Shown: in pieces, positions 16,180-47,696 of the stretch
Layout: each line of letters begins with the position of its first letter
How positions within the stretch are numbered: position 1 is the stretch's first letter
Source of the DNA: Candidatus Olsenella pullistercoris
Lineage (GTDB): Bacteria; Actinomycetota; Coriobacteriia; Coriobacteriales; Atopobiaceae
NCBI GenBank assembly: GCA_019116525.1
Contig: DXBM01000045.1
Span: 1-50,651, forward strand
Direction of reading: 5' to 3'
Length of the DNA: 50,651 bases
The notes under the pieces: generated by a model
The model's input: only the letters and a program-made list of their open reading frames with translations
Databases searched by the model: none
Told to the model about the DNA's origin: nothing
Made by a program: the position numbers and the translations under genes

Positions 16180-16243
16180 GCCTGACAGGTCCCCCCGTCC
16201 CCTCTGTCAAGCTTGACAGAGGGGACGGGGGGACCTGTCAGGC
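16180..16243. repeat. Perfect 64-bp palindrome
   Basis: Each 32-nt arm is an exact reverse complement of the other with no spacer. The centre is TCAAGCTTGA and the arms include GACAGGTCCCCCCGTCCCC. It starts 9 bp after the stop of the ABC exporter operon and could terminate it. Its GACAGGTCCCC word resembles the degraded repeat after aspS. Confidence 0.85.
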
Positions 16244-32887: not shown

Positions 32888-32947
32888 GCCCCCGGGCTTC
32901 CGAAGAGAAGTTCCGCTCAGCGCACTTCTCGAAGGAAGCCCGGGGGC
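32888..32947 (+). repeat. Structured hairpin family, copy 3 (TCCGC-KMA-GCGC)
   Basis: Outer arms GCCCCCGGGCTTCC / GGAAGCCCGGGGGC, then GAA/GAA internal loop, inner arms GAGAAGT / ACTTCTC, and apical TCCGCTCAGCGC. The same plan with different stems recurs at 38961 and 39037. It lies 29 bp past the 3' end of gpmA. Confidence 0.75.
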
Positions 32948-32976: not shown

Positions 32977-33741
32977 CTACTTCTTGGCCTTGCCCTGGTT
33001 GGCGACGGCGTTGATCTTGGCCTCGATGGTGGCCGGGTCGCCGATGTAGTGCTTGTCGAGGATGTTCCAGTCCTTGTCGAAGGTGTAGGCGCACGGCACG
33101 CCGGTCGGGATGTTGACCTCGAGGATCTCCTCGGGGGTCAGCTTCTCGAACTGCATGACGAGGGCGCGCAGGGAGTTGCCGTGCGCAGCGATGAGCACGC
33201 GCTTGCCGGCCTCCATCTGCGGCTTGATCTCGGACTCGAAGTACGGCCAGGCACGGGCGATGGTGTCCTTGAGGCACTCGGTGTAGGGGAGGTCCTCAGC
33301 GGGCACGTCGCGGAACATCTCGAGGGTGTGCGGGTCGCGCTCGTCGCCGGGCTCGAGGGCGGGCGGCTGGACGTCAAAGGAGCGACGCCAGATCTTGACC
33401 TGCTCCTCGCCGTGCTCGGCGGCGGCGTCGGCCTTGTTCAGGCCCTGGAGGGCGCCGTAGTGGCGCTCGTTGAGCTGCCACGCCTTGTGGACGGGCAGCC
33501 AGTTGCGGTCGAGCTCGTCGAGCACGCAGTTGAGCGTGTGGATGGCGCGCTTGAGCAGCGACGTGTAGCAGACGTCGAAGTCAAAGCCGGCCTCCTTGAG
33601 GGCCTTGCCGCCGGCGTGGGCCTCCTCGCGGCCGGTGTCGGTGAGGTCGACGTCGGTCCAACCAGTGAAGAGGTTGAGCTTGTTCCACTCGGACTCGCCG
33701 TGACGGACGATGACGAGCTGCATGGTCTGATCGTCGTTCAT
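32977..33741 (-). CDS. gpmA: 2,3-bisphosphoglycerate-dependent phosphoglycerate mutase
   Basis: A 254-residue dPGM interconverting 3- and 2-phosphoglycerate in glycolysis. The phosphohistidine motif is VIVRHGESEWNKLNLFTGW; substrate contacts follow in NERHYGALQGLNKAD and the second histidine in AAHGNSLRALV. The C-terminal NIPTGVPCAYTFD segment is typical. Start choice: GTG 33750, ATG 33741 and ATG 33723 are all in frame; AGAAGGG lies close to 33750 and 11 nt from 33741. The ATG at 33741 is taken, with moderate certainty. The gene is alone and followed by structured hairpin copy 3. Confidence 0.95.
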   Translation of the reverse strand: MNDDQTMQLVIVRHGESEWNKLNLFTGWTDVDLTDTGREEAHAGGKALKEAGFDFDVCYTSLLKRAIHTLNCVLDELDRNWLPVHKAWQLNERHYGALQGLNKADAAAEHGEEQVKIWRRSFDVQPPALEPGDERDPHTLEMFRDVPAEDLPYTECLKDTIARAWPYFESEIKPQMEAGKRVLIAAHGNSLRALVMQFEKLTPEEILEVNIPTGVPCAYTFDKDWNILDKHYIGDPATIEAKINAVANQGKAKK

Positions 33742-33816
33742 TGGAGACACGTCCCTTCTCGATGCTGAGTTTGTGCGGCGCCCTGCCGCCCAACATGTAT
33801 AGTATGACGCAACGGG

Positions 33817-35507: not shown

Positions 35508-35842
35508 GGGGCGCAACCACAAAACCCGTCGAGTGCGCGGCCCTTCTCGCCCTGCCCCACTTGCGCCCCACTTGTACCAGGTACAAGTGGGGCGACACGG
35601 TGTTGAGCCATTTGTACCTGGTACAAGTGGGGCATTTGCTGGCGATAAGAGCCCGCGGCCGCGGCGTTTGACGTGTCGTGTTTGTTACGAAACCGCCGAC
35701 TGCGGCCAGCTCACGCAATCTTGAACCAAACTGAATGCTTGGCGACGGGCGGGGCGTGCGCGCCCTGACACGGGAAGACCCGTGCCTCCGTCGGGAAAGG
35801 GCGTGACCACGCGCCAGAGCTCTTGGGGGAAGGAACCCAGAC
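35508..35842. other. Intergenic region after the GS-like gene
   Basis: A 335-bp stretch with no gene supported. It holds the double palindrome at 35565-35633, the hairpin-like ACGGGAAGACCCGT (about 35778) and the leader of the binding-protein gene. Confidence 0.55.
35565..35633 (+). repeat. 69-bp double-palindrome element, copy 1
   Basis: First palindrome: GCCCCACTTGTACC, A, and its exact complement. After a 13-nt spacer comes a second one with centre T, whose left arm is altered to CCATTTGTACC. A copy in opposite orientation sits at 47618-47686. Confidence 0.85.
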
Positions 35843-38155: not shown

Positions 38156-38938
38156 ATGCAGACTGGCGAGAAGAACCTGGGCGCGCAGGCCGCGCCCGCC
38201 GCTGGCGCGGAACCCATCGTGAGCATCCGCGACCTGCACAAGTCCTTCGGCGACACGCAGGTCCTGCGCGGGATAGACCTCGACGTGCACCGCGGCGAGG
38301 TCGTGGTGGTGCTCGGCCCCTCGGGCTCGGGCAAGTCCACGATGCTGCGCTGCGTGAACCTGCTCGAGACCCCCACGAGCGGCCAGATCGTCTTCGAGGG
38401 GACCAACATCTGCGAGAAGGGCGTTGACCTCAACGCCGTGCGCTCGCGCCTGGGCATGGTGTTCCAGCAGTTCAATCTCTTCCCGCACCTCTCGGTGAAG
38501 AGGAACGTGATGATCGCGCAGCAGAAGGTCCTGAAGCGCAGCCGCGAGGAGGCCGAGCGTGTGGCGATTGAGCAGCTCACCCGCGTGGGGCTGGCGGAGC
38601 GCCTCGACTTCATGCCCTCGCAGCTCTCCGGTGGCCAGCAACAGCGTGTGGCCATCGCGCGCGCCCTTGCCATGGACCCGCACGTGATGCTGTTCGACGA
38701 GGCCACGAGCGCCCTCGACCCCGAGCTCGTCCGCGACGTCCTGGCCGTCATGCGCGAGCTCGCCCAGGGCGGCATGACCATGATCGTGGTCACGCACGAG
38801 ATGGGCTTCGCGCGCGACGTGGCCGACCGCGTGGTCTTCATGGAGGGCGGCGTGATCGTGGAGGAGGGCACGCCCGAGCAGGTCTTCGAGCATCCCAAGA
38901 GCCCGCGCACCGCGGAGTTTCTCGGCAGCATCGACTGA
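38156..38938 (+). CDS. Amino-acid ABC transporter ATP-binding protein
   Basis: A 260-residue GlnQ-type ATPase. Walker A is GPSGSGKST, the Q-loop is [13 protein letters not shown], the signature is LSGGQQQRV and Walker B is [13 protein letters not shown], followed by [15 protein letters not shown]. It lies 9 bp after the permease gene with GGGAGGA as ribosome site. Together with the two genes before it, it forms a complete polar amino-acid importer. Confidence 0.97.
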
Positions 38939-38960
38939 CGATTACGTACCTGCGAGGGCA

Positions 38961-39022
38961 CCCGGTAGGTGTTGCTCCAGAAGGTGCGCTGCGCGGAACC
39001 TTCTTGCGCAACACCTACCGGG
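38961..39022 (-). repeat. Structured hairpin family, copy 1
   Basis: Outer arms CCCGGTAGGTGTTGC / GCAACACCTACCGGG. Read on the minus strand, the inner arms are AGAAGGT / ACCTTCT, the internal loop is GCA/GGA and the apex is TCCGCGCAGCGC. It lies 22 bp after the importer operon. Confidence 0.8.
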
Positions 39023-39036
39023 CAACGTGGTCGTGC

Positions 39037-39096
39037 CGTTCGGGCGTTCCGCAAGGAAGTTCCGCGAAGCGCACTTCCTGGAGGAACGCCCGAACG
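39037..39096 (+). repeat. Structured hairpin family, copy 2
   Basis: Outer arms CGTTCGGGCGTTCC / GGAACGCCCGAACG, internal loop GCA/GGA, inner arms AGGAAGT / ACTTCCT, apex TCCGCGAAGCGC. It follows copy 1 by 14 bp, in the opposite orientation. Confidence 0.8.
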
Positions 39097-39240
39097 ACTC
39101 CTCGGGTTCGTGGGCGGCATTTTGATTTCGACTGTGTTTCTCGGCTGTTTTGTGGTGTTAATGACCTGCGGTTCGTTTTGCGCTCAAAAACGTTGTGCTA
39201 AACTTTGCAAACACTGTGTCAACGTTTGGAGGCGCGGAGG

Positions 39241-47597: not shown

Positions 47598-47617
47598 CCC
47601 CGCTCGCACCTGACAGT

Positions 47618-47686
47618 GCCCCACTTGTACCAGGTACAAATGGGTCAACACACTGTCGCCCCACTTGTACCTGGTACAAGTGGGGC
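47618..47686 (-). repeat. 69-bp double-palindrome element, copy 2
   Basis: The same element as at 35565-35633 in opposite orientation: an altered palindrome (ending AAATGGGTC) then the exact one with centre T. Reverse-complemented, it differs from copy 1 at about five of 69 positions. It lies between two convergent gene ends. Confidence 0.85.
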
Positions 47687-47696
47687 ACCCTGGGGT

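Follow-up and report, generated by a model that had tools for sequence, protein, structure and literature searches.

The window, a stretch of 50,651 nucleotides from Candidatus Olsenella pullistercoris (contig DXBM01000045.1), contains three members of a hairpin family. The family is real, is undescribed within the literature searched, and resembles the REP/BIME elements in its location and its inverted pairs; by tag, stem sharing, and RAYT linkage it is not a REP/BIME member. From the pattern of change, it seems that the hairpin is maintained as DNA structure, beyond the RNA terminator that it resembles. The reading we prefer, at a probability of roughly 0.45, is that these are lineage-specific extragenic palindromes, mounted in each genome on the terminators of some dozen chromosomal genes and also kept as DNA structure.

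Three hairpins in the window

The preliminary description had reported three hairpins with their stems, loops, and an apex conserved at 10 of 12 positions. All three are present as claimed and are far beyond chance. Their parts and the flanking genes are the following.

39022-39008 and 38975-38961, minus strand: copy 1 (whole hairpin 38961-39022), outer arms, 15 perfect base pairs
39007-39005 facing 38978-38976, minus strand: copy 1, 3x3 internal loop, GCA facing GGA
39004-38998 and 38985-38979, minus strand: copy 1, inner arms, 7 perfect base pairs; apex at 38997-38986
39037-39050 and 39083-39096, plus strand: copy 2 (whole hairpin 39037-39096), outer arms, 14 perfect base pairs
39051-39053 facing 39080-39082, plus strand: copy 2, 3x3 internal loop, GCA facing GGA
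39054-39060 and 39073-39079, plus strand: copy 2, inner arms, 7 perfect base pairs; apex at 39061-39072
32888-32901 and 32934-32947, plus strand: copy 3 (whole hairpin 32888-32947), outer arms, 14 perfect base pairs
32902-32904 facing 32931-32933, plus strand: copy 3, 3x3 internal loop, GAA facing GAA
32905-32911 and 32924-32930, plus strand: copy 3, inner arms, 7 perfect base pairs; apex at 32912-32923
38156..38938, plus strand: ORF upstream of copies 1 and 2, GlnQ-like ATP-binding component of an ABC importer for amino acids
39241..39915, plus strand: next gene after copies 1 and 2, whose start comes after glnQ at many of the orthologous loci as well
32977..33750, minus strand: ORF, gpmA, 2,3-bisphosphoglycerate-dependent phosphoglycerate mutase, upstream of copy 3

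The glnQ-like gene was scanned not in the window itself but through L095, a member of the same gene group, whose best match is the GlnQ model, below its cut-off. The gpmA ortholog L116 matches NF010713 over its cut-off, and near-full-length gpmA matches were found in 30 of the 31 genus genomes, with a fragment in the remaining one.

The apices of copies 1, 2, and 3 are TCCGCGCAGCGC, TCCGCGAAGCGC, and TCCGCTCAGCGC, with 10 of 12 positions fixed. The statement that the copies share no stem sequence was too strong. On the motif strand all inner stems are purine-rich (AGAAGGT, AGGAAGT, GAGAAGT), and the outer stems are alike where they adjoin the internal loop (TTGC, TTCC, TTCC); only the outermost 10 or so base pairs are unrelated. 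The apex 14-mer TTCCGCNNAGCGCA occurs exactly three times in the window, each time in one of the three copies; with up to two mismatches it occurs 10 times, which is the chance level (shuffle mean 10.95).

All three copies fold far better than shuffled sequence, as RNA and as DNA and on both strands. As RNA, the motif strands of copies 1, 2, and 3 reach -46.0, -42.7, and -48.2 kcal/mol (z -7.0 to -7.4), and 0 of 200 shuffles of each copy fold as well. The other strands reach -45.5, -43.3, and -48.6 kcal/mol as RNA; the DNA energies are -28.0 versus -26.9, -27.9 versus -26.8, and -27.4 versus -27.2 kcal/mol for the motif strand and the other strand, respectively. Nearest-neighbour energies thus barely distinguish the two strands, which counts against a DNA reading.

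Copy 1 is the first hairpin past the glnQ-like gene, with 46 nt between stop codon and apex motif and with '-' polarity (the orientation of the motif strand relative to the upstream gene). Copy 2 is the second member of a back-to-back (-,+) pair and lies 121 nt past the same stop codon. Copy 3 is the first hairpin past gpmA, at 52 nt, and has '-' polarity relative to that gene. Among the three, only the copy at 39037-39096 would carry the G-N-A motifs in read-through RNA of the upstream gene. Other long palindromes, of different sequence, are present in the window at 16180-16243, 35565-35633, and 47616-47688.

Distribution of the family

The assembly to which the window belongs is 81.5% complete and comprises 1.88 Mb. 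The exact apex occurs in it 11 times, against 2 for the reversed control, and all 11 occurrences are in long hairpins of the same type. A covariance model (R1), built on six of the genome's own hairpins, adds four more (L020, L023, L018, and L024), which brings the family in this genome to 15; the proposal that the three copies belong to a hairpin family is borne out here and by further copies in relatives. The apex of L018 reads CGC-AGG-GCG. L024 (G000:C54:9520-9597) has a lengthened small apical stem, TC-CTGAGCGCC...GGCGCGAAG-C, with the TC/C loop and the inner stem preserved.

The exact apex was found in 23 of the 25 genus genomes searched (the own genome included) and is absent from G008 and G021. 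R1, the kind of search that the preliminary description had suggested, matches 44 of 247 genomes of the order at E<=1e-5. Sixteen of these are of the window's genus, with 1-18 matches each (13 in the own genome; 6 or fewer in 5 of the other 15), counts that may include both strands of one hairpin, as one of the own genome's 13 does. One other genus of the same family accounts for 6 genomes with 1-3 matches each, and a second family of the order for 22, again with 1-3 each, except G185 with 17. Across a phylum sample R1 matches 4 of 198 genomes, three of them of the window's genus and one of the second family. The family is one of the Olsenella/Thermophilibacter group; it is rarer in other genomes of the order and is not found elsewhere in the phylum sample.

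A scan with an 18-base core, AAGTTCCGCNNAGCGCACTT, reported 87 stretches; the counts given here cover the 80 loci listed (L088-L167). Seventy-six of these are labelled Olsenella, Thermophilibacter, Tractidigestivibacter, Atopobium, or other Atopobiaceae. L091, L092, L151, and L159, from other phyla, are chance matches that have the 18-base pattern without a long hairpin. Among the 98 matches listed, 4 are off-phylum and at least 5 within the group (L100, L142 twice, L152, and L157) lack the full hairpin fold. Viral contigs yielded 39 matches at 39 distinct loci (two patterns), of which only 5 passed the fold threshold; the best of these folds has 9 Watson-Crick stem pairs, against mostly more than 20 in the family, and a phage origin was rejected.

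At several loci of the second family the stem has about 26-37 bp and no internal loops, and the apex T-TC-(C)GC-GNA-GC-C-A is retained. L142 (6177-6352) carries three direct repeats of the apex at a spacing of 78 nt; one is a full hairpin of about 30 bp without an internal loop, and each of the other two lacks an arm. In L289 (G130) and L290 (G122) there are clusters of 3 and 4 copies, mostly with perfect stems of about 30-37 bp, which surround a transporter-like gene and a gene resembling phosphoketolase (by eye). In L289 the flanking sequence is repeated as well.

Anatomy of the module and compensatory change

The shared module spans about 40 nt and reads, on the motif strand, TTCC-GNA-(7 nt, purine-rich, ending in T)-TC-CGC-GNA-GCG-C-(A plus the complementary 7 nt)-GNA-GGAA. 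It has two forms: in type A the inner stem has 7 bp and the loop is GNA/GNA; in type B the inner stem has 8 bp and the loop is TAA/GT. The outer stem adds about 10-13 base pairs that are mostly unrelated between genes and almost perfectly Watson-Crick.

We parsed 110 copies that passed a fold threshold, a set in which a handful of stems are still poor (the lowest with 5 Watson-Crick pairs). Seventy-eight have the 7-bp/3x3 form, 19 the 8-bp/3x2 form, and 13 other forms; the stem is perfectly Watson-Crick in 65 of the 110. In the 3x3 loops, the 5' strand reads GNA in all 78 cases and the 3' strand in 74 of them. A GNA triloop (CGC-GNA-GCG) is present in 102 of 110 copies, although the search patterns largely set its closing pair and third base; its first base was left free and is G in 103 of 110. 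Since AAGTTCCGCNNAGCGCACTT prescribes four pairs of the inner stem as well as the last base of the triloop, counts for the inner stem and the triloop are biased, whereas those for the outer stem, the internal loop, and polarity are free of this bias.

Covariation was assessed in a hand-chosen alignment of 60 well-formed type-A copies. Of its 1620 cells, 98.0% are paired, a value that is reached by 0 of 500 shuffles and by no slide of the alignment, and 17 of 17 outer-stem pairs have changed on both sides. Compensation, which the preliminary description had seen in three copies, is therefore massive, and the other copies compensate too. Columns 14-17 (TTCC/GGAA) are nearly fixed, and the extent of the module was set at about 40 nt on this basis. 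G.U pairs fill 16 of 1020 outer-stem cells, against 30 unpaired cells.

Strong covariation is what an element kept as RNA would display; the scarcity of G.U in the outer stem speaks against such an element. Compensated changes with few wobble intermediates are also the expected trace of palindrome correction. The palindromes could thus be a by-product, remade by template switching during replication, with the module as a relic or as a promoter of the switching and no function for the cell. Correction of this kind, however, should tend to erase the 3x3 loops, which are among the most conserved parts, and both polarity and location at gene ends are constrained; we regard a by-product as decidedly improbable.

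Location and polarity at gene 3' ends

The 110 folded hairpins lie between tandem genes in 74 cases, between convergent genes in 26, at a contig edge in 9, inside a called gene in 1 (L124), and between divergent genes in none, counts that depend on a gene caller seeded with three window ORFs. With 0 divergent contexts among the 100 copies that have called genes on both sides, the placement of the family at gene 3' ends, first proposed from the three window copies, stands.

Polarity is nearly fixed. Of the 109 hairpins with a gene 3' end assigned, those no more than 75 nt from the nearest stop codon comprise 79 '-' and 3 '+', and those beyond 75 nt 20 '+' and 7 '-'. Sorted by orthologous gene group, 28 groups are '-' only and 3 are '+' only; two of the latter (L006 and L155) sit between convergent genes and are hence ambiguous. 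Exceptions are the '+' gpmA hairpin of G024 (L054) and a near '+' copy, L152. Most copies in other genera follow the rule, which G222 breaks. A broad set of 207 hairpins, which includes chance folds and serves as a check only, has 108 '-' and 10 '+' near the stop codon. The 5' foot of the first hairpin past a gene lies 19-28 nt from the stop codon in 52 of 79 such first copies and 10-32 nt in 73 of 79.

Opposite-strand neighbours less than 200 nt apart are in (-,+) order in 15 of 15 cases, as at 38961-39096 in the window. Their spacing is 51-175 nt, and 69-91 nt in 11 of the 15. The pairs stem from 8 gene groups, and 7 of the 15 are the glnQ locus in different species; in the comparison of glnQ 3' ends, L058 and L059 are left out or represented by the end only. 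Past glnQ in G005 (L062) there is a single hairpin whose 5' half is similar to the first and whose 3' half is similar to the second hairpin of the usual pair, as though the middle of the pair had been deleted.

The genes upstream are ordinary chromosomal ones, among them those for phosphoglycerate mutase, GroEL, LeuRS, PNPase, ribosomal proteins L24 and S10, pyruvate kinase, glutamate dehydrogenase, IMP dehydrogenase, TruB, rubrerythrin, and an ABC exporter. No common pathway was evident in the 30 of 34 gene groups scanned. Replication strand was considered as a cause of the polarity; by eye, hairpins on the two strands are intermingled along the chromosome of G185.

These results bear on the possibility that the family is an RNA element, a 3'-UTR or terminator RNA with a tip that serves as a protein-binding site or shields certain mRNAs at their 3' ends. 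In the mRNA this tip would read G-CGC-UNN-GCG-GA between the 7-bp arms, with UNC/UNC below. The narrow distance from the stop codon and the missing divergent contexts are in its favour. Its best argument is the near-fixed polarity relative to the upstream gene: a fixed polarity with respect to transcription would be the behaviour of an RNA element, and a cruciform would have no obvious need for it.

Relation to intrinsic terminators

Downstream of the 79 first copies, in the mRNA sense, T has a frequency of 0.56 at position 1 and A a frequency of 0.03-0.15 over positions 1-8. A GC-rich hairpin is present and the T tract is enriched but degenerate, which again fits an RNA element. No such T enrichment follows the 20 second copies.

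Orthologous gene ends were classed as loaded (with module) or plain by eye from the sequences, not by the loose pattern. At 30 gpmA 3' ends the module is present in 20, and 2 have variants (L037 and L054). Plain hairpins occupy L032, L034, L039, and L052, and, farther out, L057; L029 and L048 have other hairpins, and L055 runs off its contig. The stem GGCCCCCGG is common to plain gpmA terminators (L034, L032, L052) and loaded ones (L036, L047). Among 26 orthologous ABC-exporter 3' ends (L236-L261), 16 have the module, 2 have it in decayed form (L237 and L238), and 7 have plain hairpins (L244, L248, L253, L256, L258, L259, and L261). At L246, a 44-bp palindrome of other sequence stands in for the terminator. 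At the ABC locus, G005 and G023 are plain and G012 is loaded, judged by sequence. The ABC-exporter end of the own genome (L258) is without the module; together with L256 (G002) it resembles, by eye, the loaded form minus its tip.

Polarity near the stop codon, the T tract, and plain terminators at orthologous ends together make it likely that the hairpins are, or sit on, intrinsic terminators. Plain states adjoin loaded sisters on the gene tree, so copies have been lost or swapped repeatedly, and since plain terminators occur beside module-bearing sister species, no single copy is indispensable. The median stem is 24 bp in the family (broad 207-hairpin set) versus 13 bp in plain terminators.

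Mis-pairs and the strand of the loops

If pairing in the mRNA were what keeps the stem, surviving mis-pairs should be G.U rather than A.C on the mRNA strand. In a strand-symmetric scan, 78 plain terminators, a control drawn from a wider set of loci and almost all from the window's genus, have 45 G.U and 15 A.C. The 79 first hairpins have 23 G.U and 26 A.C (Fisher p 0.0031, an optimistic value, as are all p-values here, because orthologs are not independent). With the four foot-nearest pairs left out, the ratios are 16:24 in first hairpins and 45:13 in plain terminators (p 0.00026). Counting only U-G against C-A, which is free of the effect of the T tract, gives 26:8 for plain terminators and 8:10 for first hairpins. 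An earlier, smaller set of 40 plain terminators had 20 G.U and 10 A.C, and the broad set of 207 hairpins, chance folds included, has 37 G.U and 48 A.C. The 20 second copies have 8 G.U and 2 A.C on the mRNA strand of the upstream gene; these cases, too small in number to carry weight, lean the opposite way to a DNA reading.

In first copies the G-N-A motifs lie on the template strand, and the transcript accordingly reads U-N-C in its loops. The claim that the changes reflect selection on RNA structure is therefore not well supported: the mRNA has U-N-C loops, and G.U is not in excess among the mis-pairs. An RNA element has to account for first copies that, unlike plain terminators, have no G.U preference on the mRNA strand, for G-N-A motifs that lie on the other strand, for second copies whose read-through RNA has the opposite strand, and for the perfect stems of certain relatives, which at about 26-37 bp surpass the needs of a terminator. 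Yet a 24-bp RNA stem tolerates single mismatches, and the missing G.U preference may in part reflect weak selection on the RNA. Taking both sides together, we consider a pure RNA element somewhat unlikely.

The missing G.U preference and the G-N-A elements on the template strand lead us to prefer a DNA-level role on top of the terminator. As DNA, C-GNA-G and GNA/GNA motifs stand out for their stability. In a study of phage N4 promoters, the C:G closing pair and the 5' G and 3' A of the three-base loop are required for supercoil-driven extrusion of the hairpin, and the loop on the template strand is the resistant one (PMC4496689). Streptomyces telomere hairpins are capped by GNA loops with sheared pairing (PMC7205883).

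A more specific version of the DNA-level role would be a chromosomal, strand-oriented DNA-hairpin signal at the ends of selected genes throughout the order. The palindrome would form a cruciform whose template strand has three G-N-A elements in sheared pairing; recognised as folded DNA by a dedicated protein, it would couple termination to topology. In this full form we hold it to be unlikely.

Dispersal and relation to mobile elements

Orthologous copies of the module have an identity of 0.846, copies at different genes of one genome 0.771, and copies at different genes across genomes 0.775; the corresponding values for the outer arms are 0.626, 0.455, and 0.452. Since the module is no more alike within than between genomes and orthologs are closer, there has been no recent dispersal in the window's group. 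Judged from these sequence comparisons, the copies in this group are probably old, inherited with the gene, and held to a common form, not freshly spread.

G185 differs in having a mosaic dispersed repeat (L292-L305) of roughly 200 bp with a type-B hairpin in its middle. There were 27 model matches in this genome, and the 21 listed are near-identical type-B copies within the larger mosaic repeat; the module can therefore spread. Half copies lacking the rest (CTATGCCACC...) were seen near the mosaic repeat.

Y1_Tnp proteins are encoded in 28 of 31 genus genomes. The module was found in 0 of 32 RAYT loci (2.5-7.5 kb, two genes counted twice), with both a strict and a loose pattern. GTAG is present at the 5' foot in 3 of 110 hairpins (0.027; 0.014 in control windows) and at the 3' foot in 0 of 110. 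CGTC is present at the 5' and 3' feet in 9 and 11 of 110 (0.082 and 0.100; control 0.078), and GACG in 15 and 2 of 110 (0.136 and 0.018; control 0.088). With no GTAG/CGTC tag above background and the module in none of the 32 loci, a RAYT-mobilised REP was rejected. At least three RAYT loci (L187, L189, and L204) have other long palindromes nearby; in L187, a palindrome resembling the one at 16180-16243 of the window adjoins the Y1-transposase (RAYT) gene.

More generally, the module could be a REP-like or miniature mobile element that a transposase inserts into terminator tips or gene ends, with polarity as an insertion preference. The module is common to unrelated genes, inverted pairs are BIME-like, G185 has had its burst of near-identical copies, and orthologous sites alternate between loaded and plain terminators, all as such an element would have it. 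Against it stand the module identities within and between genomes, the RAYT loci, the plain forms that adjoin loaded sister species, and L258 and L256, whose tip-deleted appearance (by eye) points to losses. A mobile element is improbable as the explanation of the family.

Comparison with known systems

According to Di Nocera et al. 2013 (PMC3733652), REP/BIME elements of the GTAG and CGTC superfamilies are extragenic, lie mostly between tandem or convergent genes and near 3' ends, and occur singly or as inverted dimers, as does the family. The family differs from them in the tag and in RAYT linkage, and in outer stems that are unrelated between copies (identity 0.455 between genes of one genome). 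It also differs in copy number, with 5-18 R1 matches in 15 of the 16 listed genus genomes, where REP usually exceed 100 copies (PMC2817692). A term search of PMC3733652 finds no Olsenella, Atopobium, Coriobacter, or Eggerthella.

Intrinsic terminators share with the family the GC-rich stem just past the stop codon and, as far as first copies go, a degenerate T tract, and plain ones occupy the same place in other species; the longer stem (median 24 versus 13 bp), the conserved and oriented tip, and the lack of a G.U preference set the family apart. The promoter hairpins of the phage N4 virion RNA polymerase also have a C-GNA-G triloop on the template strand, the determinant of extrusion under supercoiling (PMC4496689), but the family has a long stem, further internal loops, and a place at chromosomal gene 3' ends, and nothing suggests a promoter role. 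Streptomyces telomere hairpins are likewise different palindromes with GNA-loop caps and sheared purine pairing (PMC7205883), whereas the family is internal to the chromosome, has additional GNA/GNA and TC/C loops, and has no telomere context.

No Rfam 15 family matches the window above its gathering threshold, in agreement with the earlier remark that the hairpins were not recognised as a described RNA family. At a permissive threshold, 38940-39120 gives 20 matches, all to miRNA-precursor models far below their gathering scores. No prior description was found in a search that left most subscription journals and the 250 palindromic candidates in the supplement of PMC8040213 outside its range. 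As for an already described DNA repeat, no fitting family was found, although REP/BIME elements behave much alike.

A working model and its meaning

If the terminator-mounted palindromes are also kept as DNA, they would work at two levels. In the RNA, the hairpin would act as the terminator of the upstream gene, a task for the outer stem and the T tract. In the DNA, it would be maintained as a single-strand hairpin or as a cruciform extruded by supercoiling, with the C-GNA-G triloop and the GNA/GNA loop forming sheared G.A pairs on the template strand. The putative reader of the folded DNA may be a factor or the topological state itself. Such a mode of working would be like that of REP/BIME, which are palindromes at 3' ends with links to termination, to mRNA ends, and to DNA topology, although the family is not one of them.

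Compensatory change taken as proof of RNA structure is readily confused with palindromes maintained as DNA, and the analysis tells the two apart. Other 'covarying' hairpin families can be put to the same simple test, a strand-symmetric count of mis-pairs in which plain terminators are the control. If the DNA reading is true, these bacteria have an oriented, structure-read DNA signal at gene ends, and the purpose of REP-like elements would become testable in a system with few, individually recognisable copies.
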